Below are positions 1,605 through 19,180 of a stretch of 20,660 bases of DNA, in pieces. The stretch comes from a virus. The DNA lies in the IMG/VR virus record IMGVR_UViG_3300025810_001060, positions 1 to 20,660 of that record, one strand, 5' to 3'. Position 1 is the stretch's first letter. Each line of letters begins with the position of its first letter. The translations under genes and the position numbers were made by a program. The notes below the pieces were generated by a model. The model was not told the DNA's origin and searched no databases. It saw only the letters and a list, made by a program, of their open reading frames with translations.

Positions 1605-1657
1605 TATGAGTTTCTTGCTTCTCTAAAGAGCAAGTGGCGCGGCATGAACCCTATACT

Positions 1658-1686
1658 AGGAGGTCTTGACAAAGGCCTCCTTTTTT
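1658..1686 (+). terminator. Rho-independent terminator
   Basis: AGGAGGTCTT (1658-1667) pairs over 10 bp (one T-G) with AAGGCCTCCT (1672-1681) around a GACA loop, and is followed by a T run to 1686. It ends the small-gene region. A weaker 6-bp hairpin (1614-1634, CTTGCT/AGCAAG) without a T run lies between it and the preceding stop. The apex of the terminator contains the -35 box of the next promoter. Confidence 0.9.
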
Positions 1687-1721: not shown

Positions 1722-2225
1722 ATGAAGATTGGTTTTAACTGTAGTTCCTTTGACTTGTTTCATGCAGGACATGTGACAATGTTGAAGATGGAAAAAGAAC
1801 TATGTGATTATCTTGTAGTTGCTCTTCAGGTTGATCCTACTATTGATAGACCAGGTATCAAAAACAAACCCACCCAGAGTGTGTACGAGAGGTATGTTCA
1901 ACTCCAAGGTTGTAAGTATGTTGATGAGATCTTGGTGTATGAAACTGAAGATGATTTGTTGAACATGATCAAGACACAGAGGATGGATATTCGGTTCTTG
2001 AGTGAGGAGTATAAGGACAGAGACTTCACTGGAAAAGAATATTGTATTGACAATGGTATCGAGATCCATTATCACTTGAGACGACATAAGTATTCTTCTA
2101 CTGAACTCCGTAAACGAGTTTATACCCTAGAGAAACAGAGGTTGGATAAACTTAAACAGGAACCTGAAGTCAGAGAACCTGCACAATATTCCACAGATAT
2201 TCTAAAAAAATACGAGGTAAAATGA
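1722..2225 (+). CDS. TagD-like cytidylyltransferase
   Basis: A 167-residue member of the HxGH nucleotidyltransferase superfamily, which transfers CMP (or AMP) from CTP/ATP to a phosphorylated substrate such as glycerol-3-phosphate. HAGH (residues 14-17) follows the first strand GFNCSSFDLF. A late SSTELRKR segment corresponds to the family's (I)SSTxIR motif, and RYVQLQGCKYVDEI resembles the central R-x-x-L-x-x-x-x-V-D-E region. TagD-type enzymes are about 130 aa; this one has a charged 35-residue tail. It opens the cluster from the promoter at 1666 and ends in an ATGA overlap with rmlB. It may activate a phospho-substituent or sugar for the glycan; the substrate cannot be read from sequence. 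Confidence 0.85.
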   Translation: MKIGFNCSSFDLFHAGHVTMLKMEKELCDYLVVALQVDPTIDRPGIKNKPTQSVYERYVQLQGCKYVDEILVYETEDDLLNMIKTQRMDIRFLSEEYKDRDFTGKEYCIDNGIEIHYHLRRHKYSSTELRKRVYTLEKQRLDKLKQEPEVREPAQYSTDILKKYEVK

Positions 2226-3139
2226 GTATTCTAGTTACGGGTGGAGCTGGGTTTATTGGAAGTAATCTTCTTCATTACCTAGAACAGTTTGGTGAAGAAG
2301 TTATCTGTGTAGATAAACTTTCATATGCTGCAGATGAAACTAATCTTCCAGATTATGTAAAGTTTTATCGGACAGATATTGCTGATGAGGAATCAGTAAG
2401 AGATGTATTTCAGAATGAAAGTATTACAAAGATTTTTCATCTTGCTGCAGAAAGTCATGTAGACAATTCAATCAAAGATTGTAAACCTTTCATTTATTCT
2501 AATATTATTGGTACTGTCAATCTTCTTCGGTGTGCATTAGAACATGAAGTAAGTAGATTTATGCATATCTCTACTGATGAGGTGTTTGGTTCTATTGCAT
2601 ATGGTTCCTTCAATGAGATATCACGGTATAGACCAAGGAATCCATACTCTGCGTCTAAGGCTTCGAGTGATCATTTTGTAAATGCATACCACACTACATA
2701 CGGATTACCAACTATTATTACAAACTGTTCTAATAACTATGGTCCACGACAATACCATGAGAAGATGGTTCCTAAAACTATCTTAAGTCTTATGAATGAT
2801 AGACCAGTTGATGTGTATGGTAATGGATTACAAATTCGTGACTGGATCTATGTTGATGATCATTGTAAGGCCCTTGTAGAACTTTCTAAGAGGGGTAGAG
2901 TGGGTCAGAGTTATAATGTTGGTGGTGAATGTGAACTTAAGAACATTGAACTTGTTCATATGATTGCTAAACTAATGAAGAAAGAACCAAATATTAACTT
3001 TGTTGAAGATAGACTTGGACATGATCAAAGATATTCAACATCCAATGATAAGATCACAACTGAAACACCTTGGACTGTATCGACACATATCGAAGAAGGT
3101 CTCTTAAAAACTATCAAATATTATTATGAACAGAACTGA
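2222..3139 (+). CDS. rfbB: dTDP-glucose 4,6-dehydratase
   Basis: Extended SDR enzyme (RmlB/RfbB) converting dTDP-D-glucose to dTDP-4-keto-6-deoxy-D-glucose with bound NAD. Visible hallmarks are the Rossmann glycine motif GGAGFIG (7-13), HLAAESHVDNSI (73-84), the catalytic STDEVFG (117-123, with T118-D119-E120), Y142-xxx-K146, and the NCSNNYGPRQ substrate motif (168-177). At 305 aa it is shorter than the usual 330-360. It overlaps the next gene, rmlC, by 14 bp, the usual pathway pairing. No RmlA is in the window, so dTDP-glucose probably comes from the host or from elsewhere in the phage genome. Confidence 0.95.
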   Translation: MSILVTGGAGFIGSNLLHYLEQFGEEVICVDKLSYAADETNLPDYVKFYRTDIADEESVRDVFQNESITKIFHLAAESHVDNSIKDCKPFIYSNIIGTVNLLRCALEHEVSRFMHISTDEVFGSIAYGSFNEISRYRPRNPYSASKASSDHFVNAYHTTYGLPTIITNCSNNYGPRQYHEKMVPKTILSLMNDRPVDVYGNGLQIRDWIYVDDHCKALVELSKRGRVGQSYNVGGECELKNIELVHMIAKLMKKEPNINFVEDRLGHDQRYSTSNDKITTETPWTVSTHIEEGLLKTIKYYYEQN

Positions 3140-3662
3140 TATTCCTCTCAAGGACGCATTTGTTATTCAAGTAGATAAGTATAAAGATCGTAGAGGATTC
3201 TTTCTAGAATCTTACAACTCTAATTCATTCAAAGAGATTGGGTTAGATGTTGAGTTTGTTCAAGACAATCACTCCAACTCTTCAGTAAATGTCCTCAGAG
3301 GACTTCATTATCAGGTAGAGAAACCACAAGGTAAACTTGTTCGGTGTATGTCCGGACGGATTCTGGATGTCATAGTAGACTTGAGAGAGTCCTCAGAGAC
3401 TTTTGGTGAGTCGTATTCAATTGATTTACACTCGCCAGAAGTCATGTTGTGGGTTCCGCCAGGGTTTGCTCATGGGTTTTATTGTATGCTAGACAACTGT
3501 CATGTTGCATATAAAACTACTGACTATTACTACAAAGAGTACGATAGAACTCTTCTGTGGAATGATAAAGACCTTGGTATTCCATGGTCAACACCAACAC
3601 CAATCCTTTCGGACAAAGATAAACTAGGTAAGACTATGAGTGAGTGTGAAAAGTATGACTGA
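3126..3662 (+). CDS. rfbC: dTDP-4-dehydrorhamnose 3,5-epimerase
   Basis: A cupin-fold epimerase (RmlC) turning dTDP-4-keto-6-deoxyglucose into dTDP-4-keto-L-rhamnose. Family signatures include RRGFFLESYN (22-31), QDNHSNSS (46-53), LRGLHYQ (58-64, with catalytic His61), PQGKLVR (67-73), WVPPGFAHGF (109-118), the Tyr-rich stretch TTDYYYKEYDRT (131-142) holding the acid Tyr, and SDKD (162-165) with the Asp of the His-Asp pair. Its 178 aa match the usual family length of about 180. The start overlaps rmlB by 14 bp and the next reductase overlaps its 3' end by 8 bp. Confidence 0.95.
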   Translation: MNRTDIPLKDAFVIQVDKYKDRRGFFLESYNSNSFKEIGLDVEFVQDNHSNSSVNVLRGLHYQVEKPQGKLVRCMSGRILDVIVDLRESSETFGESYSIDLHSPEVMLWVPPGFAHGFYCMLDNCHVAYKTTDYYYKEYDRTLLWNDKDLGIPWSTPTPILSDKDKLGKTMSECEKYD

Positions 3663-4476
3663 CCTTTCTTTATTTGGAGGAACTGGATATATTGGTTCAA
3701 CATATGAACGAATGTACCCCGGTAATGTAATCATTCCTCGTGGTCAAAGACATTTTGATACCAAGAATGTGTTGTATTTTATTAGTACAACAACTAATCA
3801 GAATGTCTTTCAGGATCTACAGGTTGATATCGATGTCAATCTAAAAATCTTTACTGAATTCTTATCGCATTGTAAGAGAACTGATACTGTAATCAACTTT
3901 GTAAGTTCAGGATTTGTTTATGGTAATGATATTCTAGATGCTAAAGAGACTGACTGTTGTAATCCAACTGGGTTCTATTCTATTACTAAAAGATGTGCAG
4001 AACAACTTCTGGTCTCTTATTGTGAGACCTTTGGTATCAAGTATCGTATCTTTAGAATTGGTAATGTCTTTGGTATTGATCCAACAGTATCACAAGGTAA
4101 GAATGTTCTAGGTTATATGATCCGTCGTCTGAAGAATGATGACTATATCGTATTGTATGATGGTGGTAACTATGTCAAAGACTACATGCATGTCGAAGAT
4201 GTGTGTAGTGCAATGAACTTATTGATGGATGAGTCCGATACCAATAACATCTATAACATTGGTACTGGGGTATCTCGTTCGTTTAGAGAAGTCATCGAGT
4301 TTGCAAAGGACTATGTTGGAAGTAATAGTGAGTTGATTAGTGCAGAGATGCCTGAGGATCAGAAGTATCTACAGATCAAAAACTTTACAATGAATGTAGA
4401 CAAACTTTCATCTTATGGTCATGTTCCAAACCTCACAATTGATACTGGTGTCGAAATGATGTGTAAAGCATATTGA
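3655..4476 (+). CDS. NAD-dependent epimerase/dehydratase (SDR), possible dTDP-sugar reductase
   Basis: A 273-residue extended SDR protein. FGGTGYIG (7-14) is the dinucleotide-binding motif and Y108-SIT-K112 the catalytic pair. NFVSSGFVYG (81-90) supplies the active-site Ser, and YIVLYDGGNYVKDYMHVEDV matches the usual epimerase C-half (G-D-G-x-x-x-R-D-x-x-x-V-x-D). I start at ATG 3655 rather than 3640 because the glycine motif then sits at the usual distance from the N-terminus and the overlap with rmlC is a normal 8 bp. Its position after RmlB and RmlC suggests a 4-keto reductase, such as the RmlD step, but it is not a clear RmlD, so the substrate is inferred. Confidence 0.85.
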   Translation: MTDLSLFGGTGYIGSTYERMYPGNVIIPRGQRHFDTKNVLYFISTTTNQNVFQDLQVDIDVNLKIFTEFLSHCKRTDTVINFVSSGFVYGNDILDAKETDCCNPTGFYSITKRCAEQLLVSYCETFGIKYRIFRIGNVFGIDPTVSQGKNVLGYMIRRLKNDDYIVLYDGGNYVKDYMHVEDVCSAMNLLMDESDTNNIYNIGTGVSRSFREVIEFAKDYVGSNSELISAEMPEDQKYLQIKNFTMNVDKLSSYGHVPNLTIDTGVEMMCKAY

Positions 4477-4525: not shown

Positions 4526-5593
4526 ATGTCTGAATTTAAGAAAACCGCACTGGTACTAGGTGCGGGTGGGTTTATTGGTAGTCATATGGTGAAGAGACTA
4601 CGATCAGAAGGTTACTGGGTTCGTGGTGTTGACCTAAAGAGACCAGAGTATTCTGACACTGAAGCAAACGAATTCATTCAAGGTGACTTGCGTGATAGAA
4701 GTTTTGTCCGTCGTTGTATTCGTACCACTGGTGTGAATGGTGGGTTCTATGCACAGATTGTAGATAAGTTTCTGTCACCTTTTGATGAGATCTATCAGTT
4801 TGCTGCTGACATGGGTGGTGCGGGATTTGTATTCACTGGTGAGAACGATGCAGATATCATGCATAACTCTGTGTCTATCAATCTGAATGTCCTTGAAGAG
4901 CAACATCTTCTTAATTTAGATAAGGATGTAAACAAGACTAAGATCTTCTACTCTGGTTCTGCATGTATGTATCCAGAACACAATCAACTTGATCCTGATA
5001 ATCCTGACTGTCGTGAATCATCAGCATATCCTGCAGCACCAGACTCAGAATATGGATGGGAGAAACTATTCTCTGAGCGTCTCTACCTTACTTACAATCG
5101 TAACCATGGGATCCCTGTTCGGGTTGCTAGGTATCACAATATCTTCGGACCTGAAGGAACCTGGGACGGTGGAAGAGAGAAGGCACCAGCTGCAATCTGC
5201 CGTAAAGTTGCTTACCTCCCGAACGTCGGTGGAGGTATCGAGGTGTGGGGAGATGGCTTACAAACTCGTTCCTTCTTGTACATTGATGAATGCATTGAAG
5301 CAACTCGACGACTGATGGATAGTGACTTCCAGGGACCAGTTAATATTGGTTCTGAGGAGATGGTTAGTATTAATCAGTTGGTTGAAACTGCTGCTAAAGT
5401 TTCTGACAAGGTAGTCAGAAAGATATATAAACTCGATGCTCCTACGGGTGTCCGCGGTCGTAATTCAAACAATGACCTTATCCGTGAGAAACTTGGTTGG
5501 GATTACACCCAAACTCTGGAAGAGGGTATCCGTAAAACATACGAATGGATTTGTACACAAATTGAGGAGAATGCAGATGGGAATCTCTGTTGA
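4526..5593 (+). CDS. GDP-mannose 3,5-epimerase (plant GME-like)
   Basis: Predicted to epimerise GDP-D-mannose at C3 and C5, giving GDP-L-galactose (and GDP-L-gulose), as the plant vitamin C pathway enzyme does. The whole 355-aa protein follows the plant GME pattern: GAGGFIGSH (12-20), AADMGGAGF (93-101), SGSACMYPE (143-151, with catalytic C147), Y176-GWE-K180, HNIFGPEGTWDGGREKAPAA (204-223, with catalytic K219), WGDGLQTRSF (241-250) and GVRGRNSNN (308-316, with R310). All known catalytic positions are kept. It has its own dual promoter and overlaps the FkbM methyltransferase gene by 17 bp. No GDP-mannose synthesis gene is visible, so the substrate is probably host-made. Confidence 0.92.
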   Translation: MSEFKKTALVLGAGGFIGSHMVKRLRSEGYWVRGVDLKRPEYSDTEANEFIQGDLRDRSFVRRCIRTTGVNGGFYAQIVDKFLSPFDEIYQFAADMGGAGFVFTGENDADIMHNSVSINLNVLEEQHLLNLDKDVNKTKIFYSGSACMYPEHNQLDPDNPDCRESSAYPAAPDSEYGWEKLFSERLYLTYNRNHGIPVRVARYHNIFGPEGTWDGGREKAPAAICRKVAYLPNVGGGIEVWGDGLQTRSFLYIDECIEATRRLMDSDFQGPVNIGSEEMVSINQLVETAAKVSDKVVRKIYKLDAPTGVRGRNSNNDLIREKLGWDYTQTLEEGIRKTYEWICTQIEENADGNLC

Positions 5594-6290
5594 TAGAATT
5601 CACGAACTGATAGGTAATCGTGATCAGGTTGTAATTTTTGAAGTTGGTTGTGCTGACGGAACTGATACTAGACAGTTCCTCAGTAAGTTTGGGACTAATC
5701 TCAAGATCTATACTTTTGATCCTGACCCTACCAACATCAAAGCAATGTCTGAAGTTGGTGGTGTAGATGTTAAAGGTAACTCTAATTCAAAACTAAGGTC
5801 TGATGGTCGTCATACTTTTACTTCTGTTGCAATTGCCGCACAGGATGGTAAAACCACATTTACTAGAAGTAGAAATGTAAATGGTCCTGGTGGTGGTACA
5901 GACTGGGGTCGTTATTCTGGTTCAATCTATGAACCGAAGACTATTATCAATAGTCCTAAGTATGGGAATCGTTGGCCAATGATTCAGTATGATGAGAAGA
6001 TTGAAGTAACAACTCGGAGTATTGATTCATTCTGTGATGAGAATGGCATCAAACATATCGACTTTATGTGGATGGATGTTCAAGGTGCAGAGAAGGAAGT
6101 GTTCCGTGGTGCAAAAAATATGATCGGTAAGATTGATTATATTTACACGGAGTATCACGAAGAAGAGATGTATGAGGGTGCTACTAACCTTCAGACAGTT
6201 ACTGATCTTCTGGTTGGGTATGATATGGAACAGAACTGGCCATACAATGATGTGGAAGGTGGTGATGCATTGTTTAAACTGAGAGGTTGA
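5577..6290 (+). CDS. FkbM-family methyltransferase
   Basis: A 237-residue class I SAM methyltransferase. IFEVGCADG (20-28) is motif I for SAM binding and IYTFDPDP is the post-strand-2 acidic site. DFMWMDVQGAEKEVFRGA is the FkbM hallmark D-x-Q-G-A-E-x-x-V-L-x-G. Family members O-methylate sugars or polyketides. The start at 5577 is supported by GAGGAG (5564-5569), 7 bp upstream; ATG 5571 would be too close, and the open frame before that is inside the epimerase gene. A GGPGGGTDWGRYSGS insert about a third of the way along is unusual and may shape the acceptor site. In this setting it most likely methylates a sugar hydroxyl of the glycan. Confidence 0.88.
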   Translation: MGISVDRIHELIGNRDQVVIFEVGCADGTDTRQFLSKFGTNLKIYTFDPDPTNIKAMSEVGGVDVKGNSNSKLRSDGRHTFTSVAIAAQDGKTTFTRSRNVNGPGGGTDWGRYSGSIYEPKTIINSPKYGNRWPMIQYDEKIEVTTRSIDSFCDENGIKHIDFMWMDVQGAEKEVFRGAKNMIGKIDYIYTEYHEEEMYEGATNLQTVTDLLVGYDMEQNWPYNDVEGGDALFKLRG

Positions 6291-6291
6291 G

Positions 6292-7176
6292 ATGAAAGTA
6301 TTTGATGTATTTTTGTTTGGTTATGAACTAGATCTACTGGAGATTCGTATGAATCTTCTTGATCCTTATGTAGATTACTTTGTGTTCAGTGAAGGTGGTA
6401 AAACATTCTCTGGCGAAGATAAAGGTTTTGTGTTTGATGTAGCTGATAAACGGTTCAAAAAATTTGAAGATAAGATTATCTACACTAAGATTCAAGAACC
6501 AACATCTGAACAACTTCAGGCACAAGGTGTAAAGTATAATGTAAAAAAAGAATCTTTCATGAGAGATACTTTTTACAAGGATAGCATCATGGATGTTCTC
6601 AAAGAACATTGTTCTGATGAAGATGTAATCATCTGGTCTGACTTAGATGAAGTACCTAACCCAGAAGTCATTGAACAGATTAAGGACTTCTATGAACCTG
6701 GTACGGTATATAACTTTGCACAAGATAACTATCAGGCTGCATTGAATTGGTTTGAAACTTCATCTACGATTATTTCCCAGACTAAAGACTTTGAATATGA
6801 AGATGAGGGTCCAAGATGGATTGGTACTAAGATGTGTAATTTTGGTACATTGAAGAAGTATTCACTAACAGATATGAGACGTGAACTCCCACAAGAGAAT
6901 AATCTAAGAATATATCCTGGTGGGTGGCATTGGAGTACAGTTGGTAGTGACAAAGAGTGTACTATGTACGAGAGAGTGATGAAGAAGATTAAGTCTTCTG
7001 CACATACTGAACTCAACAATGAAAAATTGATTGGTGAACTCGAACAGAGATTGAAAGATGGTCGGTCACCACTGGGTCAGGACAATGCATCATACTGTAT
7101 TACTCACTTTGATGAAGATAGGTTCCCACAGTATCTCATAGACAACCAAGAGAAGTATTCTTATTTGATCAAATGA
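6292..7176 (+). CDS. Glycosyltransferase family 17 protein
   Basis: A 294-residue GT17-type enzyme. The eukaryotic prototype is the bisecting beta-1,4-GlcNAc transferase MGAT3; phage and bacterial members have unproven specificity. Strong signatures are the N-terminal KVFDVFLFGYELDLLEIRMN (2-21), VDYFVFSEGGKTFSG (27-41), and IIWSDLDEVPNP (113-124), where D117-L-D119-E120 is the DxD-like metal/nucleotide-sugar site. GGWHWSTVG is the conserved C-half motif. The gene starts one base after the previous stop and overlaps the next by ATGA. No membrane segment is present, so it should act in the cytoplasm on a soluble acceptor. Confidence 0.9.
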   Translation: MKVFDVFLFGYELDLLEIRMNLLDPYVDYFVFSEGGKTFSGEDKGFVFDVADKRFKKFEDKIIYTKIQEPTSEQLQAQGVKYNVKKESFMRDTFYKDSIMDVLKEHCSDEDVIIWSDLDEVPNPEVIEQIKDFYEPGTVYNFAQDNYQAALNWFETSSTIISQTKDFEYEDEGPRWIGTKMCNFGTLKKYSLTDMRRELPQENNLRIYPGGWHWSTVGSDKECTMYERVMKKIKSSAHTELNNEKLIGELEQRLKDGRSPLGQDNASYCITHFDEDRFPQYLIDNQEKYSYLIK

Positions 7177-8138
7177 TTGTAACTGAAATCTATAGGGGTT
7201 CTGGACTGGGAAACCAGATTTGGAACCTGGTGGTATCTAGAATCCTTGCACATAGACATGGATATAAGTGGGGCGTAAAAAAATCTACACCATTTAAGGC
7301 ACGTAAGTTTATGCCTGACTTTGACTATGGTGAAGAAGTAACAGGTGGTCATACTCCTAGAGAGGGACAACCACCAGAATCATTGCCTGATGGTATCACT
7401 CATTACATTCGTGAGAGGAATGATCCTCTTCCACAGTGTGGTCATAGTGGTATCTTTTTTGATCCTGGTCTATGGAATAATCTTCCTGACAACTCAAAGA
7501 TTGATGGTCTCTTTCAGTGTTTAGAGTATATCAATGACTGTAAGGATGATATTCGTCAGTGGTTATCTCATAATGTAAATGTTACTGAGTATTCTGATGA
7601 AGATATTTGTGTCATTCACTTCCGTGGTGGTGAGTATTTGATTACTGCATCATGGTTAGAACCAAAGTTCTATGAGAATGCCCGTGATAGAATGTTGGAA
7701 CACAACCCCAATATGAAGTTTGTGGTTGTGACTGATGATCCAGAGAATGCAAACAAGTTTATTCCATGGGCAGAAGTTGTAGGTGCAACTACTCTTAATG
7801 AACAAGAAGACATTGAACAGGGAACAGGTTTCTTCAAATACATAGGAGGTAATATCGGTGTTGATTATTCTATTCTACATAATGCTAGGAACGTCATTAT
7901 GTCCGCATCAACATTCTCCTTCTGGCCAGTATGGACATCTAATGTCTCGCCCAAGGTCATTGCACCCAAGTACTGGTTTGACCATAAAACTTCCAATGGT
8001 TGGTGGAGAGGTGACGATATGATCGTCCGGGATTGGGATTACATCGATAGAGAAGGTAAACTCTTCAATGGTACTGATTGTCAAAAGGAGTATGATCTTT
8101 ACAGACTCACGACTCCGTACTATAATTTTATGAGATAG
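7173..8138 (+). CDS. GT11-like / fucosyltransferase-superfamily protein (divergent)
   Basis: A 321-residue protein with a GT-B fucosyltransferase layout. It has an N-terminal RGSGLGNQIWNLVVSRILAH (8-27) acceptor-domain motif, VIHFRGGEYL (147-156) in place of the H-x-R-R-G-D donor-binding motif, and SASTFSFWPVW (approx. 253) resembling the N-S-T-F-S-W-W motif of GT11. The VIAPKYWF segment matches GT11 VIAPxxWFG. H149 and R151 of the donor motif are kept, but the second Arg and the Asp are replaced by Gly and Glu. It is longer than the two clear GT11 genes in the cluster because of an extra central segment. The donor may be GDP-fucose or GDP-L-galactose, the latter being the epimerase product. 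Confidence 0.75.
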   Translation: MIVTEIYRGSGLGNQIWNLVVSRILAHRHGYKWGVKKSTPFKARKFMPDFDYGEEVTGGHTPREGQPPESLPDGITHYIRERNDPLPQCGHSGIFFDPGLWNNLPDNSKIDGLFQCLEYINDCKDDIRQWLSHNVNVTEYSDEDICVIHFRGGEYLITASWLEPKFYENARDRMLEHNPNMKFVVVTDDPENANKFIPWAEVVGATTLNEQEDIEQGTGFFKYIGGNIGVDYSILHNARNVIMSASTFSFWPVWTSNVSPKVIAPKYWFDHKTSNGWWRGDDMIVRDWDYIDREGKLFNGTDCQKEYDLYRLTTPYYNFMR

Positions 8139-8146
8139 AGAGTACC

Positions 8147-9442
8147 ATGTATCAGTTGATTGAAAACTTCATTCAATCCGCCAAGGAGATGGATGATAAT
8201 GTGTTTCCATTCATGGCTAACAAAGATTGGAAGCCAGGTAACAATGTATATTACTCTGGACCATATTGGAATGACCTAGAGGCACAAGAACTTATCTACG
8301 CAGTAATGAAAGGTAAGTGGTTGTCTTCTGGTGAGAAGGTGAATAAGTTTGAGAAAGAGTTCTCTAATAGATTTGAATTTGATCATTCTGTGATGGTGAA
8401 CTCTGGTTCATCAGCCAACCTGGTAATGATTGCTGCACTCAAGAAATACTATGGGTGGGAAGATGGTGATGAGATTATTGTATGTTCTTGTGGTTTTGCA
8501 ACTACCATTGCACCAGTGGTTCAGGCTGGCCTGAAGCCAGTCTTCGTTGACATCAACTGGGATGACCTGAACTGGAATATGGATCAGGTAGAAGATAAGA
8601 TTACTGAAAGAACTCGTGCAGTATTCTCCTCTCCTGTCCTTGGTAATGCTTATGACATCGATAGATTGGTAGAACTTTGTAAGAGTAAAGATATTCATAT
8701 CATTGCAGACAACTGTGACAGTCTTGGGAGTAGATATAAAGGTGACTATCTCACCAAACACGCAGTGGCTGCATCGTGTTCGTTCTATCCTGCACATCAC
8801 ATTTGTACCATTGAAGGTGGTATGGTGTCATCAAACAACAAAGCAATCATTGATCTTGCTCGTAGTTTTGCTTGGTGGGGTCGTGGATGTTATTGTGTAG
8901 GACAACAGAACCTACTCTCTAACGGTGTCTGCGGCCGTCGTTTTGATACTTGGTTGGATGGTTACGAAGACATCGTTGACCACAAGTATGTGTTCTCTCA
9001 GATGGGTTACAACTTGAAACCACTTGACATGCAAGGTGCAGTTGGTTCAGTTCAACTCCTGAAGTTTGATGACATCCATAGACTGAGAAGAAAGAATAAG
9101 GAACGTATTCAGAGTATCATTGAGACAATCCCTGGTTGTCGTGTAGTGAATGAGCGTGAGGATAGTGAGACAAGTTGGTTTGGTGTTCCCATTGTATGTG
9201 ATGATAAGAAACTAAAACACTCTCTTGTTGCTCATCTTGAGAAGAATAAAGTTCAGACACGTAACTACTTTGCAGGTAACATTCTTCTTCATCCTGGTTA
9301 CTCACATCTTGATGATGCTATGAAGTATCCTGAAGCCAATAAGGTTCTTAACAAAGTGTTCTTCTTGGGTTGTTCTCCAGTCATTACTGATGATATGATT
9401 GACTATATTGAAACAGTCGTAGAGGATTTTAAACATGCTTGA
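8147..9442 (+). CDS. rfbH: RfbH/E1-type PLP [2Fe-2S] 3-dehydrase of the DegT/StrS aminotransferase family
   Basis: A 431-residue DegT/DnrJ/EryC1/StrS-fold enzyme in which the usual PLP-binding lysine is histidine: SFYPAHHICTIEGG (212-225), with H218 at the Lys position. That is the hallmark of the 3-dehydrases E1/RfbH and ColD, which use PMP to remove the C3 hydroxyl. Cysteines C190, C248, C250 and C262 give C-x57-C-x-C-x11-C, close to the C-x57-C-x-C-x7-C iron-sulfur motif I recall for E1, so it is E1/RfbH-like rather than ColD-like. NSGSSANL (85-92) is the phosphate-binding motif and ADNCDSLG (187-194) the PLP-ring Asp region. No reductase partner (E3) is nearby. A likely substrate is the RmlB product, giving a 3,6-dideoxy or related sugar. 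Confidence 0.9.
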   Translation: MYQLIENFIQSAKEMDDNVFPFMANKDWKPGNNVYYSGPYWNDLEAQELIYAVMKGKWLSSGEKVNKFEKEFSNRFEFDHSVMVNSGSSANLVMIAALKKYYGWEDGDEIIVCSCGFATTIAPVVQAGLKPVFVDINWDDLNWNMDQVEDKITERTRAVFSSPVLGNAYDIDRLVELCKSKDIHIIADNCDSLGSRYKGDYLTKHAVAASCSFYPAHHICTIEGGMVSSNNKAIIDLARSFAWWGRGCYCVGQQNLLSNGVCGRRFDTWLDGYEDIVDHKYVFSQMGYNLKPLDMQGAVGSVQLLKFDDIHRLRRKNKERIQSIIETIPGCRVVNEREDSETSWFGVPIVCDDKKLKHSLVAHLEKNKVQTRNYFAGNILLHPGYSHLDDAMKYPEANKVLNKVFFLGCSPVITDDMIDYIETVVEDFKHA

Positions 9443-11567: not shown

Positions 11568-12391
11568 AACATTACCTATCAATCGCATCTGTTTTCAAGA
11601 ATGAAAGCTGGAATCTTAAGGAGTGGGTTCTACATTACAAGCATCATGGTGTTGATCACATCTACCTGGTCAACGACTTCAGTGATGATGAGTATATGTC
11701 TATACTTGAACCGTTCATTCGTGAAGGATTTGTTACACTCTTCCAAAATAATATCACAGAAAAATATACTGGTAGACAGACTGATGTAAACAATCGGTTC
11801 TTCTTACCTATCTGTAATGAAACTCAATGGATTGCACAAATTGATCTAGATGAATTTCTATATAGTCCTAAGACAGTAGACTTAAAAGAAGTCTTAAGGA
11901 ACTACGAAGAGTACGGTACAGTTGAAACCAACTGGGTATGGTTTAATAGTAACGATCATCTTCATCACCCTGATGGTGGTCTGGTTAAGAATTTTACTAG
12001 TCGTGCAGAATTTGGGGACAGGGTATGGATGACCCATCGATCCAAATGTGCTGGTGCAGGACAAGAAGAACCTGAGTGGTTTAATCTTTGGGCACCTAAA
12101 CAGATTGCAAACACTAGATTTGGTGTACAATCTTTTAATATTCATAAGATATTCACTAGTGGACCTAACATCAATCTATCATTTGTTGGTAGACCAGATG
12201 ACCCTGAGATACTAAACAATCATTACCAGATTCAATCAAGAGAGTTCTGGGAAAAGATTAAGATGACAAGAGGTGCATTGAATAACTGGTACGCAGCCAA
12301 TGCAAGAGGTTGGCATACCTTCTATTCATTAGATGTAGGAGATACTATAGACACAACACTGGCAGAACAAAACAAGGAGATTGAATTATGA
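11564..12391 (+). CDS. GT92-like (Glyco_tranf_2_4) glycosyltransferase
   Basis: A 275-residue protein of the Glyco_tranf_2_4/GT92-like group. SIASVFKNESWNLKEWVLHY (6-25) is the family opening (KNE-x-x-x-L-x-E-W-x-x-x-H), HGVDHIYLVNDFSDD (28-42) follows as expected, and AQIDLDEFLY (91-100) has the D-x-D-E-F metal site. SFNIHKIF matches the late H-K/H-R motif. GT92 members characterised in animals are galactosyltransferases acting on fucose-containing glycans; bacterial and phage relatives have unknown specificity. It is joined to both neighbours by ATGA overlaps. Confidence 0.86.
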   Translation: MKHYLSIASVFKNESWNLKEWVLHYKHHGVDHIYLVNDFSDDEYMSILEPFIREGFVTLFQNNITEKYTGRQTDVNNRFFLPICNETQWIAQIDLDEFLYSPKTVDLKEVLRNYEEYGTVETNWVWFNSNDHLHHPDGGLVKNFTSRAEFGDRVWMTHRSKCAGAGQEEPEWFNLWAPKQIANTRFGVQSFNIHKIFTSGPNINLSFVGRPDDPEILNNHYQIQSREFWEKIKMTRGALNNWYAANARGWHTFYSLDVGDTIDTTLAEQNKEIEL

Positions 12392-13194
12392 CTATTGGAA
12401 TGAATAACCTTGGTAATAATGGAAGAATTGGTAATCAACTATTTCAATATGCTGGACTTGTAGGTATTGCAAAGAATAAAGGTTATGACTTTAGAATCCC
12501 AGAAGACCAAGAACTCAGCAAATGTTTTGAAATGCTTCATTGTGGTAACCGTTATGGTCTTATTGACGGACCTGAGTGTATTCTTCATGAGTCTCATACA
12601 TTTGCAGAAGACCTTTTTAATGAGTGTCCTAATCACATTCATCTAAGTGGATACTTTCAAACAGAAAAGTATTTTAAAGATGCACAACGATTATTGAAAT
12701 GGGATTTTAGATTCAAAGAAGATATTATCAATGAAGTTGATTATGTCTACGGTGATATTTTAAGTTCAAACCCTGTCTCTATCTGTGTGAGAGAGTATAA
12801 CGATCACTTTGATTACCCTGGTAGTCATAACAATCATCGTAACTTACCATGGGAATACTTTGAACGTGGTATTGAGATGTTAGGTAAGGACAGAACTTAT
12901 ATTATCTGTTCAAACAATCTTGAGTTGTGCAAGGAACAAGAAGTATTCAAAGGTAATAACTTCTACTTCAATGACATCACAACTAAAGTAGATAAGTCTC
13001 ACTTTGATCTATGTTTGATTTCAAAGTGTTCAGACTTTATAACATCCAATAGTACATTCAGTTGGTGGGGAGCATACCTATCACAGAATAAAGATAAGAG
13101 AGTGATCGCACCAGATACTTGGTATGGTCCAGGTCTTCAACATATTAGTACAGAAGATCTTATTCCTGAAACTTGGGAGGTAATTAAATCATGA
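12388..13194 (+). CDS. GT11 alpha-1,2-fucosyltransferase-like protein with altered donor motif
   Basis: A 268-residue GT11 protein. GRIGNQLFQYA (12-22), HLSGYFQTEKYF (85-96), NSTFSWWGAYL (221-231) and VIAPDTWYG are clear GT11 motifs. The donor-binding H-x-R-R-G-D motif, which is intact in the paralogue at 16498, reads SICVREYND (131-139): one Arg remains, but the His, second Arg and Gly are lost. It may use another donor or acceptor, or be weakened. The paralogue is about the same length and shares the family motif order, so the two probably arose by duplication or separate capture. Typical GT11 function is transfer of L-fucose from GDP-fucose to galactose. It couples to both neighbours by ATGA overlaps. 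Confidence 0.85.
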   Translation: MTIGMNNLGNNGRIGNQLFQYAGLVGIAKNKGYDFRIPEDQELSKCFEMLHCGNRYGLIDGPECILHESHTFAEDLFNECPNHIHLSGYFQTEKYFKDAQRLLKWDFRFKEDIINEVDYVYGDILSSNPVSICVREYNDHFDYPGSHNNHRNLPWEYFERGIEMLGKDRTYIICSNNLELCKEQEVFKGNNFYFNDITTKVDKSHFDLCLISKCSDFITSNSTFSWWGAYLSQNKDKRVIAPDTWYGPGLQHISTEDLIPETWEVIKS

Positions 13195-13970
13195 TGGATA
13201 TTGCAATTCATGATGGTTCACCTGGTCTAGCAAATAGAATTAAAAACTATGCAGGTATCTATAGGACATTTAAACAATGTATGACCACCAACGAGGCGGA
13301 TGCATACATCTTTGATGACATCACTCTGGCAAACATAGAACAACTTGGATACTATCCATGTTTTGATCACTGGAGATTACCTATTCTCCCTGGTGAAGAT
13401 AGGAAGACTGGTGAGTATAAGTATATCGATCTTCTATATGAAGACACACCAAAGTATTTTGTCGAACAGTATAGGAAAGCATTTAGTTACTTACAACCTA
13501 GAAAAGATATCGTAGATTATGTTAATGATTTCACTGAAGGTTGGGGTAATGTAGTTGGATTACATATCAGATCGTGGTACTGTGACAGACATAAGTATCA
13601 TAGTAATAAATTGTTTGAAAGTATTATAGATACTTTCGACAAAGATAGAAAGATCTTTCTTTGTGGTGACAACAGTGATGTGCTAAAACACTTTGAGAAT
13701 AAGTATGGTAATCGTATCATCACTCACGAACAGAAGAAATTCAATCATCCACACAAGGCTGAGTCAGGACACAACAAGTCTATTCAGTCTACTGTAGATG
13801 CATTCATTGACTTGATGCTTCTGTCCAAGTGTGATACTATTGTAGGTACATATGCCTCAACGTTTACTGAGGTGGCGTGGTGGTTAGGAGATACCAAACC
13901 CAAGGTAATCATTCCTGAACCATATAATGTAGAGGAATCATTTAAGAATAGAATTTTTGAGAGACTATGA
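13191..13970 (+). CDS. GT23/NodZ-like fucosyltransferase-superfamily protein
   Basis: A 259-residue protein with the GT-B fucosyltransferase pattern but not classic GT11. SPGLANRIKNYAGIY (10-24) resembles the G-L-G-N-R/Q acceptor-domain loop. VVGLHIRSWYCDR (121-133) carries the H-x-R donor motif (H125, R127). GTYASTFTEVAWWLG near residue 230 matches the S-x-x-S-x-x-x-x-x-A motif of NodZ/FUT8-like enzymes. ATG 13191 overlaps the previous stop; 13194 would remove one Met. GGGAGG just upstream (13175-13180) is a good ribosome site. The likely donor is a GDP-6-deoxy-hexose or GDP-L-galactose; this is inferred from the family. Confidence 0.72.
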   Translation: MMDIAIHDGSPGLANRIKNYAGIYRTFKQCMTTNEADAYIFDDITLANIEQLGYYPCFDHWRLPILPGEDRKTGEYKYIDLLYEDTPKYFVEQYRKAFSYLQPRKDIVDYVNDFTEGWGNVVGLHIRSWYCDRHKYHSNKLFESIIDTFDKDRKIFLCGDNSDVLKHFENKYGNRIITHEQKKFNHPHKAESGHNKSIQSTVDAFIDLMLLSKCDTIVGTYASTFTEVAWWLGDTKPKVIIPEPYNVEESFKNRIFERL

Positions 13971-14863
13971 AAACTTCCCTTGTTACAGGTGGTGCCGGGT
14001 TTATCGGTAGTCACCTGGTGGACAAACTATTATCAATGGGTCACAAGGTGATCGTTCTTGATAATGAATCATCTGAAGGTCATGATGACTATCATTGGAA
14101 CAGTGGTGCAACAAACTATCCTGTAGACATTCGAAATTTTTATCACATTGTTGATAAGTTTAGAGGAGTTGATTATGTATATCATCTTGCAGCCAAGGCA
14201 AGTGTTCAGGCATCGATTGACTTTCCACTTGATACAATGGAAACCCAAGTCATGGGTACAGCCAATGTACTTGAAGCTGCAAGACAGTGTGGTGTAGAGA
14301 AGTTTATCTACTCATCTACCTCTGCATGTTATGGTAATAAGAATCCTATTCCTAATACGGAAATTATGAGAGAAGACCCTCTCAATCCTTATGCTATTGG
14401 TAAGTTGACTGGTGAACAACTAGTCAAGTCGTATCATGGTCTCCACGGTATGAAGACTGTAGCATTTAGATACACCAATGTATATGGTGAGAGGGCCAGA
14501 CATGTAGGAACATATGCTCCTGCAGTAAGTAAGTTTCTGAAGATGACCCGAGAGGGACAACCCATTACTATCTTTGGTGATGGTTCACAACGTCGTGACT
14601 TCATTCATGTATCTGATGTAGTCAATGCTAACGCACTGATTAGTTTCATGGAACTTGACAACTGGGGTGAAGTTTATAACATTGGGTATGGTGAGAACTG
14701 GAGTATTAAAGATATTGCAGATGCTATCTCTGATGATCAGGTTTTCTTATCTGGTAAACCTGGTGAGATGAGAGAAACTCTTGCAGATATTCGTAAGGCT
14801 AAATCAGAACTGACTTGGAAACCTAAAGTAAACATTCTTGATTGGATCAAAACCCAACTATGA
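13967..14863 (+). CDS. UDP-glucose 4-epimerase-like NAD-dependent epimerase
   Basis: A 298-residue extended SDR enzyme of the GalE/WbpP/UDP-sugar epimerase type. GGAGFIG (8-14), HLAAKASVQASI (73-84), IYSSTSACYG (114-123, active-site Ser/Thr), Y142-AIG-K146, YTNVYGERAR and IFGDGSQRRDFIHVSDV all fit. Cys121-Tyr122-Gly123 at the end of the catalytic strand is typical of C4 epimerases acting on UDP-Glc/Gal or their N-acetyl forms, but the nucleotide cannot be settled by eye. ATGA overlaps at both ends place it in the coupled array. It is somewhat shorter than classical GalE at about 340. Confidence 0.87.
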   Translation: MKTSLVTGGAGFIGSHLVDKLLSMGHKVIVLDNESSEGHDDYHWNSGATNYPVDIRNFYHIVDKFRGVDYVYHLAAKASVQASIDFPLDTMETQVMGTANVLEAARQCGVEKFIYSSTSACYGNKNPIPNTEIMREDPLNPYAIGKLTGEQLVKSYHGLHGMKTVAFRYTNVYGERARHVGTYAPAVSKFLKMTREGQPITIFGDGSQRRDFIHVSDVVNANALISFMELDNWGEVYNIGYGENWSIKDIADAISDDQVFLSGKPGEMRETLADIRKAKSELTWKPKVNILDWIKTQL

Positions 14864-15666
14864 TTGACCTATCACAAGCAACATTTATTATTCCTATTAG
14901 AATTGAATCATCTGATAGGTTGAGGAATGTCATTACCACGACTGCATTTCTTCTGGAGAACTTCAATACAAATATCATCATCAAAGAAGTTGATAGTGAA
15001 TCTGTATTTGAAAGAGATGCTCTTCCAATTCTTAAAAGTATCTTGGATGTAGATGTAAATGTAAAACATATCTTTGAACAGAGTGATGAACCATTGTTTC
15101 ATAGACAAAGAGTTCTCAATGAGATGATTATGGAAGCAGATACGGAGATAGTTGTGAACTATGACTGTGATGTAATTCTTCCTCTGGAATCATATGAATT
15201 ATCATACAAAGGTATTCTTGATGGTATCTACGATGTTGTATATCCTTATGCGTCTGGTAACTATCAATACCAAGTAGACCCATCAGACAAAGTTGTGTCT
15301 CATTTTCTAGAGACATTAGACTATGAGTATCTGAAATCACATTCTAAAGTTCACGATGCACAGTATGGTCATGTTCAGTTCTTCAACCGTAATGTTTATA
15401 TCAAAGGTGGTATGGAGAATGAAAACTTTAGAGCATATGCTCCAGAAGACAAGGAAAGATTTTATAGATTCACAAAACTAGGTTATAGTGTAGGACGTAT
15501 ATCTAACTACATATACCATCTTGAACATTCCCGTGGTGAGAACTCTTGGTTCTCAAATCCTCACATGAATTCTAACATGTCTGAATGGGATAAGATTCAA
15601 AAAATGACCAAAGAAGAACTCATAGAGTATTACTCGGTCCAAAGTTATCTTAAAAAGTATCAATGA
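14860..15666 (+). CDS. Galactosyltransferase-like (GT7 C-terminal type) GT-A glycosyltransferase
   Basis: A 268-residue protein. TFIIPIRIESSDRLRNV (8-24) is a GT2/GT7-like N-terminal strand, and VNYDCDVILP (99-108) holds the D-x-D metal site (D102, D104). FNRNVYIKGGMENENFRAYA and PEDKERFYRF near residues 173-204 match the Glyco_transf_7C acceptor loop (G-G-M/F-D-E-x-F-x-G-Y/W-G-x-E-D). GT7-type enzymes often add Gal or GalNAc, so a UDP-Gal donor made by the neighbouring GalE-like epimerase is a reasonable inference. I start at ATG 14860, overlapping the previous stop as ATGA, rather than 18 bp upstream inside that gene. Confidence 0.82.
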   Translation: MIDLSQATFIIPIRIESSDRLRNVITTTAFLLENFNTNIIIKEVDSESVFERDALPILKSILDVDVNVKHIFEQSDEPLFHRQRVLNEMIMEADTEIVVNYDCDVILPLESYELSYKGILDGIYDVVYPYASGNYQYQVDPSDKVVSHFLETLDYEYLKSHSKVHDAQYGHVQFFNRNVYIKGGMENENFRAYAPEDKERFYRFTKLGYSVGRISNYIYHLEHSRGENSWFSNPHMNSNMSEWDKIQKMTKEELIEYYSVQSYLKKYQ

Positions 15667-16511
15667 AAATTCTCAATCTAGGTTCTGGTGGTCAGATAGG
15701 TGCATACCTGTCTGACTATCTTCGTAAAAAGGGTCACGAAGTTTTTAATTTTGATATCACAAATGGTCCAGAACAAGATCTAACTCTGATTCCAAATCTA
15801 TTTCTCGAACACTATATAAAAGAATCAGACTTTGTATTCTTTCTTGCATTTGATGTAGGTGGATCAAGATACTTGAAGAAGTATCAACACACCTTTGACT
15901 TTATCAATAACAACACTCGTCTGATGGCGAATGTGTTTGGGTTATTGGAGAAGTATCATAAGAGATTTATCTTTGCATCTTCACAGATGGCAAACATGAG
16001 TTACTCACCCTATGGTATTCTTAAGACTGTAGGAGAACTATACACTAAATCCCTTAATGGATTGACAGTTAAGTTCTGGAATGTATATGGTATTGAAAAA
16101 GACCATGAGAAGTCTCATGTAATTACTGACTTCATCCGTAGAGGGTTTGAAGAGGGTCAGTTTGAGATGATGACTGATGGTACAGAAGAGAGACAGTTCT
16201 TGTATGCTGAAGACTGCTGTAAGGGTCTTGAGACTATCATGGAATGTTATACCGATTTCAAACCTGAAGATGAACTACACCTGACATCATTCCATTGGAA
16301 TACAATCAAAGAAGTTGCACAGATTATCTCTGGTCAATTCAATCTAATTGACAGGCCAGTTAGTATTACTCCGGGTACTTCGAAGGACAGTGTTCAAATG
16401 GACAAGAGGAATGAGGCTAGTAACTATATTCATGCATGGTGGATTCCCGAGACAACAATTGACCAGGGTATTACAAAAGTATTCAACGAAATGAAAAATG
16501 ATTGGGTTTGA
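15663..16511 (+). CDS. Divergent NAD-dependent epimerase/dehydratase
   Basis: A 282-residue SDR protein. LGSGGQIGAYL (6-16) is a G-x-x-G-x-x-G motif with Gln in place of the usual Phe. FIFASSQMAN (102-111) gives the Ser, and Y117-GIL-K121 the catalytic pair. FWNVYGIEKDHEKSHVITDF and MMTDGTEERQFLYAEDCC match the substrate-domain motifs. The N-terminus lacks the common HLAA, reading FFLAFDVGGSRYL, where the D-x-G-G pair recalls the A-A-D-M-G-G of GDP-mannose 3,5-epimerases. A GDP-sugar substrate is thus possible but unproven. It overlaps the next gene (GT11) by 14 bp. Confidence 0.8.
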   Translation: MKILNLGSGGQIGAYLSDYLRKKGHEVFNFDITNGPEQDLTLIPNLFLEHYIKESDFVFFLAFDVGGSRYLKKYQHTFDFINNNTRLMANVFGLLEKYHKRFIFASSQMANMSYSPYGILKTVGELYTKSLNGLTVKFWNVYGIEKDHEKSHVITDFIRRGFEEGQFEMMTDGTEERQFLYAEDCCKGLETIMECYTDFKPEDELHLTSFHWNTIKEVAQIISGQFNLIDRPVSITPGTSKDSVQMDKRNEASNYIHAWWIPETTIDQGITKVFNEMKNDWV

Positions 16512-17292
16512 TTATCTTGGAAAGGCTGGACAACTGGGTAACCAGATGTTTCAGTTTGCTGCAACAAAAGGTATTGCACAAAATCGAGGATATGATATGT
16601 GTATCCCTGACCATAATGAAAAAGTCAATGATGGTATAGGTAACATACTTCGTATTGAACTTGATGATGCGTTTGACATTGAGTGTCAAAGATGTATGAT
16701 GGGATCGAATATCCTTCAAGAAGAAAGTTTTCATTTCGATGAAACCTTATTCAATAACTGTCCAGACAATCTAAGTCTGTATGGTTTTTTTCAAACGGAA
16801 AAGTATTTCAAACATATCGAAGATACTATTCGTAGAGACTTTATATTCAAGAAGAGAATTCGAGATGAATGTAAAGAAATTGTTGAAGAAGTATTCGATC
16901 AAGATCCTATCGCCTTACATATTCGTAGAGGTGATTTTCTAATCAACAGTGGTAATCATCATAACCTTTCTATTGATTGGTATGAGAAAGCACTGAAGAA
17001 GTTTGATCCTGATAAAGAAGTCATCATATTTTCTGATGATATATTCTGGGCATCTGCTCAAGAACTATTCAAACCTGATAGGTTTATCATCTCCGATGGT
17101 AATAGTTCTTATCATGATATGTTTATGATGACACAATGTAGTGACTTCATCATTGCAAACTCTACCTTCTCATGGTGGGGTGCATGGTTGGCCAACACTG
17201 GTAGAGTGATTGCTCCATCTAAATGGTTTGGACCAAACAATGCTCACTTAAATACAAAAGACCTATACCCAAGTCACTGGGAGATTTTATAA
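16498..17292 (+). CDS. GT11 alpha-1,2-fucosyltransferase
   Basis: A 264-residue GT11 enzyme with all motifs intact: GQLGNQMFQFA (11-21), LYGFFQTEKYF (94-104), IALHIRRGDFL (138-148, the donor-binding H-x-R-R-G-D), IIANSTFSWWGAWL (218-231) and VIAPSKWFGP. The family transfers L-fucose, usually alpha-1,2 to galactose, from GDP-L-fucose. No GDP-fucose synthesis genes (gmd, fcl) are in the window, so the donor is either host GDP-fucose or GDP-L-galactose made by the epimerase at 4526, which differs from GDP-fucose only by the 6-hydroxyl. It shares a TAATG stop/start with the next gene. Confidence 0.92.
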   Translation: MIGFDYLGKAGQLGNQMFQFAATKGIAQNRGYDMCIPDHNEKVNDGIGNILRIELDDAFDIECQRCMMGSNILQEESFHFDETLFNNCPDNLSLYGFFQTEKYFKHIEDTIRRDFIFKKRIRDECKEIVEEVFDQDPIALHIRRGDFLINSGNHHNLSIDWYEKALKKFDPDKEVIIFSDDIFWASAQELFKPDRFIISDGNSSYHDMFMMTQCSDFIIANSTFSWWGAWLANTGRVIAPSKWFGPNNAHLNTKDLYPSHWEIL

Positions 17293-18261: not shown

Positions 18262-18621
18262 ATGTTCAAATCTGTATTCGCAGCAGCAGCTGCTCTGTCC
18301 ATGTCCGCTAGTGCCGCTCTTGCAGGTCCCTATGTAAACGTTGAAGCCAATAGTGGTTTTGCGGGATCTGACTATGTAGGAACCACTACTGATCTTCATG
18401 TTGGATACGAAGGTGAGTCTGGTGATCTTGGTTACTATGTTCAAGCTGGTCCTACTTTGGTTGCACCTGATGGTGAGGCAACTGAAACTGAATTTGGTGG
18501 TAAAGCTGGTCTTGGTGTTGCAGTTACTGAAAACATCAGTCTTTACGGTGAGGTCAGTTGGTTGACCGGTGATGACGAAACCGGTTATGGAACGAAAGCC
18601 GGTCTGACTTATCGTTTCTGA
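18262..18621 (+). CDS. Small secreted outer-membrane beta-barrel-like protein (porin-like), paralogue 1
   Basis: A 119-residue protein. Residues 1-21 form a signal peptide (MFKSVFAAAAALSM..., cleavage after ASAALA). The mature ~98 aa are glycine-rich, alternate polar and hydrophobic residues in about six strands, and end in LTYRF; a C-terminal Phe after an aromatic is the outer-membrane insertion signal. It should be exported to the host outer membrane by host machinery. It is paralogous to the next gene (shared AGPYV start, PDG turn, C-terminal xxGTKxxxxYxF). Cyanophage genes of this kind beside pstS have been reported as phosphate-regulated and of unknown function; a porin-like role in phosphate uptake is my inference. 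It is followed by a strong terminator. Confidence 0.82.
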   Translation: MFKSVFAAAAALSMSASAALAGPYVNVEANSGFAGSDYVGTTTDLHVGYEGESGDLGYYVQAGPTLVAPDGEATETEFGGKAGLGVAVTENISLYGEVSWLTGDDETGYGTKAGLTYRF

Positions 18622-18823: not shown

Positions 18824-19180
18824 ATGAAAGCATTCGCAGTTGCCCTGCTCGGTTTGGCGATCTCCGTCCCCGCCATGGCAGGTCCATATGTAGAGTCCAA
18901 GTCCGAGTTCAAAGGAACTGATGAGGAGTTCAGTAAGCAAGTCCACCAAGGACGTGTAGGATATGAGTGGAAGACAGGAAACTTTGCTCCATACATCGAA
19001 GGTGGTGCTGGAGTATCTGTTCCTGATGGTGGTGAGCAAGAAGGTTTTACTGCTCTTGAACTTGGTAGTAAAGTAAAGATCACTGATAATTTCAGTGCTT
19101 ATGGTAAGTGGGAGAACATTTTCCAAGATGATTCTACTCGTGATTGGAAAGTTGAAGTCGGCACCAAGTATAAGTTCTGA
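18824..19180 (+). CDS. Small secreted outer-membrane beta-barrel-like protein (porin-like), paralogue 2
   Basis: A 118-residue protein. Residues 1-19 are a signal peptide (MKAFAVALLGLAISVPAMA). The mature ~99 aa show short alternating strands (HQGRVGYEW, FAPYIEGGAGVSV, LGSKVKITDNFSAYGKW, WKVEVGTKYKF) and end in KYKF, an outer-membrane assembly signal. It is too small for a standard 8-strand barrel, so a 6-strand or oligomeric form is possible. A Pho-box-like promoter lies upstream and pstS follows 10 bp after its stop, so it is very probably phosphate-starvation induced and co-transcribed with pstS. It is a paralogue of the gene at 18262. It matches my memory of the PhoB-regulated unknown gene found beside pstS in cyanophages. 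Confidence 0.85.
   Translation: MKAFAVALLGLAISVPAMAGPYVESKSEFKGTDEEFSKQVHQGRVGYEWKTGNFAPYIEGGAGVSVPDGGEQEGFTALELGSKVKITDNFSAYGKWENIFQDDSTRDWKVEVGTKYKF

Follow-up and report, generated by a model that had tools for sequence, protein, structure and literature searches.

In plants, GDP-mannose 3,5-epimerase (GME) serves ascorbate and cell wall synthesis, according to the accessible part of a review (PMC8787198), and the accessible text on GM35E of Methylacidiphilum fumariolicum presents that enzyme as the first characterized bacterial GME, with conserved Cys, Lys, and Arg residues and a GxxGxxG motif (PMC6678494). Among cyanophages, ORF123 of S-SCSM1 has already been named GDP-mannose-3,5-epimerase (PMC9602691); the available portion of that paper gives GDP-L-galactose/GDP-L-gulose as its products and also lists GMD, GDP-L-fucose synthase (GFS), and three fucosyltransferases for this phage, and a further paper (PMC10665884, available part) again lists GME among cyanophage auxiliary genes. 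The wcaG RNA (RF01761), described in 2010 as a candidate riboswitch that occurs in marine samples and cyanophages near exopolysaccharide or high-light genes (PMC2864571, accessible part), has also been reported in S-CREM1 (PMC9964418, accessible part).

A pair of GMD and GFS genes is found in the cyanophages P-SSM2, S-SKS1, S-CAM7, ACG-2014f, S-SRM01, and DSL-LC03. GMD is the start of the GDP-fucose route, and the pair, like GME, makes a GDP-L-hexose from GDP-mannose; unlike GME, it works as a dehydratase followed by an epimerase-reductase, and its product is a 6-deoxy sugar.

The DNA analyzed here, referred to as the window, is a 20,660-base IMG/VR virus record, a fragment of a phage genome whose nearest phage relatives are the T4-like Synechococcus phages S-H68, RB11-B, RN05-S, S-B05, and S-B43. 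An earlier reading of the sequence alone had placed an open reading frame for a phage GME at 4526-5593, and this frame is intact, with an ATG at 4526, a stop codon ending at 5593, and 355 amino acids. The same reading held phage GMEs to be rarely discussed, which the published annotation of S-SCSM1 contradicts: the window GME adds one more member to a cyanophage gene family already in the literature. The new part seems to be its context, namely the alternation of GME and GMD alongside GT11 glycosyltransferases and the shared placement of wcaG. In the open-access cyanophage texts on these sugars and enzymes, within their accessible portions, neither a GME-GT11 link nor a GME/GMD alternation is described; a link between wcaG and GME may already be recorded in the additional files of PMC2864571 or PMC9964418.

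The glycan gene cluster of the window

The GME gene lies in a cluster that comprises a nucleotidyltransferase, RmlB, RmlC, several short-chain dehydrogenase/reductases (SDRs), an RfbH/ColD-like dehydratase, an FkbM methyltransferase, and glycosyltransferases of families GT17, GT2, GT92, and GT25. It also includes a GT11-like protein, a NodZ-like protein, and two members of GT11 that exceed the Pfam cut-off. The features discussed below are as follows.

1722..2225 (+), nucleotidyltransferase (cytidylyltransferase-like), first gene of the glycan cluster
2222..3139 (+), SDR (TIGR01181, 375 bits; cut-off 365.1)
3126..3662 (+), dTDP-4-dehydrorhamnose 3,5-epimerase, RmlC (TIGR01221, 213 bits; cut-off 155.75)
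3640..4476 (+), extended SDR (reductase/epimerase-like), without a Cys two residues past the catalytic Ser
4526..5593 (+), GME, with S145, C147, Y176, K180, N205, K219, R248, and R312
5577..6290 (+), FkbM-type methyltransferase, overlapping the end of the GME gene by 17 nt
7173..8138 (+), GT11-like glycosyltransferase (22.1 bits, under the Pfam cut-off of 23.9; phrog_2644 glycosyltransferase)
8147..9442 (+), RfbH/ColD-like 3-dehydratase (DegT family), putative
12388..13194 (+), GT11-family glycosyltransferase with the degenerate motif ICVREYND
13191..13970 (+), NodZ/FUT8-like fucosyltransferase-family protein (PF05830, 28.6 bits; cut-off 28.3)
16498..17292 (+), GT11 (alpha-1,2-fucosyltransferase family) with an LHIRRGDF motif, candidate transferase partner of GME

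The start of the FkbM gene at 5577 follows the S-H68 annotation, the mechanical ORF beginning at 5436. The DegT-family protein at 8147-9442 is nearest to RfbH (3bcx) and ColD, shares an identical SFYPAHH motif with 3bcx, and is likely a 3-dehydratase, because a His, whose role at this position we presume, replaces the PLP lysine of aminotransferases. A search for a second 3,5-epimerase-type SDR in the window yielded none: the SDRs beginning at 2222, 3640, 13967, and 15663 are, by our reading of the motif, without a Cys two residues after the catalytic Ser/Thr, that at 15663 being the least clear case. RmlC acts on a dTDP-sugar and has a fold other than that of SDRs.

Among the eleven window proteins searched with NCBIfam, no GMD or GFS exceeded its cut-off; the window being a 20.7-kb fragment, a GMD elsewhere in the same phage is possible, and S-H68 (a partial record), RB11-B, and S-B05 have no GMD over the cut-off. 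No mannose-6-phosphate isomerase was named among the window proteins scanned, a set that left out the small ORFs before 1722, and RB11-B and S-SCSM1 have an annotated one upstream. A transaldolase-like gene is present in S-H68, RB11-B, and S-B05 at the site where the window, which is without it, joins 14842-15666 and 15663-16511. Directly after the glycan cluster lie two small genes (18262-18621 and 18824-19180), whose counterparts in relatives carry the name DUF680 or outer membrane barrel, and a gene for the phosphate-binding protein PstS (19191-20150). Upstream of the cluster lie three tRNA genes (1-71, truncated by the contig end, 558-629, and 718-790), and a tRNA-rich stretch likewise precedes the cluster in RB11-B.

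Proposed role of GME and its association with GT11

We consider it probable that the gene encodes a working GME of the bacterial branch that feeds GDP-L-galactose to a GT11, replacing GMD and GFS. With the mechanism taken from the characterized family as given in the accessible part of PMC8787198, C4 of GDP-mannose, which we assume to be supplied by the host, would be oxidized by NAD+ held in the Rossmann fold, with Y176, K180, and S145 assisting; C147 and K219 would invert C5 and C3, with R312 lowering the pKa of C147; and C4 would then be reduced back, giving mainly GDP-L-galactose and some GDP-L-gulose. GT11 transferases, of which that at 16498-17292 is the best candidate, would probably place L-galactose on a surface glycan of the infected host or on a virion glycan. 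GME would thereby stand in for the GMD and GFS pair found before the same kind of transferase in other cyanophages. If it does replace the GDP-fucose route, the "fucosyltransferases" that GME phages encode may be transferases of L-galactose, and this sugar may be displayed by picocyanobacteria during infection. GDP-L-galactose is 6-hydroxy GDP-L-fucose. We infer that it reaches the GT11 because the two genes occur together, as set out below, and fucosyltransferases tolerate GDP-L-galactose, a promiscuity that is reviewed in the accessible part of PMC8787198.

The co-occurrence was surveyed in 16 named GME-bearing cyanophage records, 15 titled complete and S-H68 partial, and in 13 GME-less control records picked by hand (6 chosen from GMD matches, 5 from pstS matches, and 2 further); the best match to GME in these 13 controls, at 76 bits and 28% identity, was not at GME level. 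GT11 was over the cut-off in all 16 GME-bearing genomes. GMD was over the cut-off in just one of them, S-SCSM1, with intermediate gmd matches of 164-165 bits (cut-off 415) in Bellamy and SynMITS9220M01. GFS, searched in these 16 GME genomes, was over the cut-off in none. S-SCSM1, whose ORF123 is 67% identical to the window GME and likewise has GT11 and NodZ-like genes in its glycan cluster, thus differs from the window in having a GMD over the cut-off and, directly upstream as well, a GFS match of 455 bits (cut-off 500), the next GFS match among the 16 being 109. Among the GME-less controls, GT11 was found in 5/6 with GMD and in 0/7 without it, the latter figure being confounded, since GT11-less controls may lack glycan clusters altogether. 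The same association was seen in metagenomic sequences: of the 41 contigs of at least 20 kb among the best 80 GME contigs in IMG/VR, 37 had GT11 over the cut-off and 2 had GMD. The genomes are related, and the co-occurrence counts are therefore not independent.

Synechococcus phage B23 is a counterexample: it has a GT11 (locus L194, 12001-12792) in a glycan cluster but no GME or GMD that reaches the thresholds applied, so that GT11 can occur without either; GDP-fucose may in this case be supplied by the host. B23 accords with an alternative in which the GME is genuine but the GT11 uses host GDP-L-fucose, L-galactose being handled by GT17, GT2, GT92, the NodZ-like protein, or a different step, and the several other glycosyltransferases in the window cluster would leave room for such a division of labor. 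We regard this alternative as unlikely, though the strongest of those considered, because GT11 is present in 21 of the 22 genomes with a GDP-L-sugar enzyme (16/16 with GME, 5/6 with GMD and without GME), and because in 5/16 isolates GT11 is the next gene after GME, the two coding sequences overlapping head to tail by 4-14 nt. In the other 11 isolates, the nearest GT11 match lies 1.7-14 kb downstream of GME.

The GT11 sequences showed no feature that cleanly splits GME from GMD phages. The motif HxRRTDY, considered as a donor marker, occurs in 5/6 GMD-phage rows, yet also in GME-phage rows and in B23, and therefore does not discriminate. In a GT11 tree from which the partial DSL-LC03 row was dropped, and in which the RB11-B copies and the NodZ-like L228 were left out, 5/6 GMD-phage rows formed one fork (94/93), the GMD label requiring 2 changes against a shuffled mean of 5.7; this grouping is confounded, because the phages are related.

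Active site of the window GME

The active site, as read from the sequence, is complete. In Arabidopsis GME, the residues named are S143, C145, Y174, K178, N203, K217, R243, and R306, and the GME set of Cys, Lys, and Arg is distinguished from the Cys, His, and Lys of GDP-fucose synthase (PMC8787198, accessible part). The window protein has the GME type of catalytic set (C147, K219, and R312), an NAD motif of the GxxGxxG/A form at G12, G15, and G18, and the triad S145, Y176, and K180. C147, Y176, K180, and K219 align with Arabidopsis C145, Y174, K178, and K217, and S145, N205, and R248 correspond to S143, N203, and R243.

Four of the five catalytic residues proposed in the sequence-only reading, C147, Y176, K180, and K219, are borne out, and the fifth, R310, has to be replaced by a neighboring Arg: Arabidopsis R306 aligns with R312, not R310, because the numbering of the PDB construct runs 2 ahead of the native one, mutant chains differing at construct positions 180 and 176 where their titles state K178R and Y174F. 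R312 is Arg in Arabidopsis and in 175/175 homologues (80 IMG/VR, 80 bacterial, 15 isolate phages); position 310 varies, with Lys in the isolate S-SCSM1, which differs from the window in this respect, and Ala in a single bacterial row. The full series S, C, Y, K, N, K, R, and R is invariant in the best 80 IMG/VR, the best 80 bacterial, and the 15 isolate rows (80/80, 80/80, and 15/15; L001, from S-B05, was left out). Rows L020, L066, L083, and L175 read past a stop and were trimmed there, and L063 runs off its contig.

A GME-clade enzyme could mainly have another outcome, be it GDP-L-gulose, GDP-D-altrose, or the use of a modified GDP-mannose substrate; GMEs make both of these GDP-sugars besides GDP-L-galactose, according to the accessible part of PMC8787198, and cyanophage GMEs mostly carry a clade-specific insertion of about 17 residues. 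Every catalytic and substrate-side residue checked is, however, identical to that of Arabidopsis GME, which makes such an outcome quite improbable and leaves GDP-L-galactose as the favored main product.

Assignment to the GME family

The sequence-only reading had assigned the protein to the GME family, and homology, the catalytic set, fold ranks, and phylogeny all agree with it. In a phmmer search of the PDB, the E value was 3.5e-85 (289 bits) for Arabidopsis GME 2c59 and 4.8e-83 for another plant GME, whereas the top non-GME SDR chain reached only E 4e-20 (75 bits). An AlphaFold2 model, built from an alignment of the window protein with 51 homologues (20 IMG/VR, 31 bacterial), had a mean pLDDT of 86.2, and residues 97-102, in the conserved GGAG loop, were the sole stretch of three or more residues with pLDDT below 50. 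When the model was compared with the PDB by Foldseek, ranks 1-14 were all GME chains, and rank 15 was a UDP-glucose 4-epimerase. Arabidopsis GME (2c59, 2c54, 2c5a, 2c5e) matches the window protein in all catalytic and named substrate-side residues, with a TM score of 0.81 by query length; it differs in overall identity (48%, over a 312-residue stretch), in having GxxGxxA where the window has GxxGxxG, and in the absence of the insertion. The likeness to M. fumariolicum GM35E is by published description, not by sequence.

A quick maximum-likelihood tree of 69 rows included 1 plant, 32 bacterial, and 29 phage GMEs, with GFS, GMD, RmlB, and one GalE-like row as outgroups; 13 of the best 80 IMG/VR and 32 of the best 80 bacterial rows were taken, and L001 (S-B05) was left out. 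The GMEs, including those of Arabidopsis and the window, were split from the GFS, GMD, RmlB, and GalE-like rows at a branch with support 98*, so the phylogeny proposed earlier as a check places the window protein with the GMEs. The outgroup branches are very long, and the tree therefore backs the family placement more than the root position. Taken together, the sequence comparisons support a phage enzyme of the GME family that is encoded among genes for sugar-nucleotide enzymes and glycosyltransferases.

The candidate identities tried and rejected were GalE (TIGR01179, 63.7 bits against a cut-off of 262.3, with the Cys/Lys acid/base pair present in the window protein) and GDP-L-fucose synthase (GFS/Fcl; NF047922, 92.1 bits against a cut-off of 500, with K219, and not a His, at the position of the Lys base of Arabidopsis GME). 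That the protein is such another extended SDR is suggested by the database names of its relatives, UDP-glucose 4-epimerase and nucleotide-sugar epimerase, but is scarcely credible, given these scores, the catalytic Cys, Lys, and Arg, and the side taken by tree and fold. Phage records listed name the relatives of the window GME generically or as UDP-glucose 4-epimerase, and the GME name is borne by 1 (MK867354.2) of 37 listed phage rows at 60% identity or more.

Ancestry and the loop insertion

The description of the enzyme as plant-like holds for its active site but not for its ancestry: the best 80 bacterial loci, which come from many phyla according to their record titles, are 60-71% identical to the window GME, against 48% for Arabidopsis, and a plant origin was rejected, bacterial GMEs being closer and surrounding the phage clade. 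Scarcity in bacteria, suggested earlier for the GDP-L-galactose donor, is not supported either: a scan of bacterial genomes gave at least 575 relatives at E <= 1e-3, some of which may not be GMEs, and the top 80 are all at least 60% identical. None of these top 80 of at least 575 carries the name of a cyanobacterium. Marine viral contigs often carry close relatives: IMG/VR gave at least 599 relatives at E <= 1e-3, from 600 candidate stretches, with the best 80 all at least 79% identical to the window GME.

The loop insertion is encoded within the following stretch.

4688..4786 (+), codons of segment L55-D87 (33 residues), containing the extra loop of about 17 residues

This segment has 33 residues in 80/80 IMG/VR rows and in 11/15 isolate rows, the other 4 isolates having 16 or 19; its counterpart measures 15-21 residues in bacterial rows and 15 in Arabidopsis, and the S-SCSM1 GME differs from that of the window in being without the insertion.

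All 29 phage rows sit in one 31-row set (support 99*), together with two rows labeled as bacterial, L090 and L089. L090 (7986-9005) is the GME of a Pelagibacteraceae single-cell genome and is flanked by a UDP-glucose/GDP-mannose dehydrogenase on one side and a GMD-family gene on the other; its placement suggests a possible gene exchange between cyanophages and SAR11. L089 (7998-9005) lies on a MAG contig labeled Bifidobacterium breve, near NAD synthase and UDP-glucose dehydrogenase genes, and its label may be a binning error.

wcaG RNA upstream of GME and GMD

The wcaG RNA was over the Rfam cut-off in 8/16 GME isolates, in 4/6 GMD controls, and in 5/7 controls with neither gene, and is therefore not specific to GME or GMD; B23 had no wcaG over this cut-off. 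Its 3' end precedes GME by 72 nt in Bellamy, 79 nt in SynMITS9220M01, and 71 nt in L018, with a distance of 700-3,462 nt upstream of GME in five other isolates; in S-B05, the RNA is present and not upstream of GME on that strand. It was also found in 23 of the 41 IMG/VR GME contigs, at 66-78 nt before GME in 8 of the 23; in 14 it lies on the GME strand, 308-5,618 nt upstream, and in the contig G024 its coordinates place it toward the opposite end of the contig, at a distance of 209 kb. Nearly the same spacing occurs in 2/6 phages with the GMD and GFS pair, wcaG lying 66 nt before GMD in S-SKS1 and 62 nt before the start of the GMD match, inside the annotated CDS, in DSL-LC03; the distances in S-CAM7 and S-SRM01 are 994 and 1,652 nt.

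These placements, 62-79 nt before the first enzyme of both modules, are the reason why the RNA may sense a metabolite of the GDP-mannose branch. A broader scheme, tentative and in our view somewhat less likely to hold than not to hold, would have two interchangeable GDP-mannose modules, GME on the one hand and GMD with GFS on the other, feed GT11s that act as L-galactosyltransferases in GME phages, with wcaG able to govern both modules from 62-79 nt ahead in part of the phages. Its position before both branch enzymes would then give a concrete ligand hypothesis for an orphan riboswitch candidate.

In the window, two elements lie ahead of the cluster.

1608..1648 (+), wcaG remnant, 3' hairpin half
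1658..1686 (+), strong intrinsic-terminator-like hairpin (1658-1681) with a T run, separating the wcaG remnant from the cluster

The wcaG match spans 1530-1648 at 25.3 bits, under the gathering score of 42, and 21.3 bits with a model built from 10 wcaG copies, so a functional wcaG RNA in the window was rejected at the gathering score; the 3' hairpin at 1608-1648 is almost fully preserved, unlike the 5' half. In S-H68, a close relative, a wcaG RNA that passes the cut-off lies upstream of the cluster.
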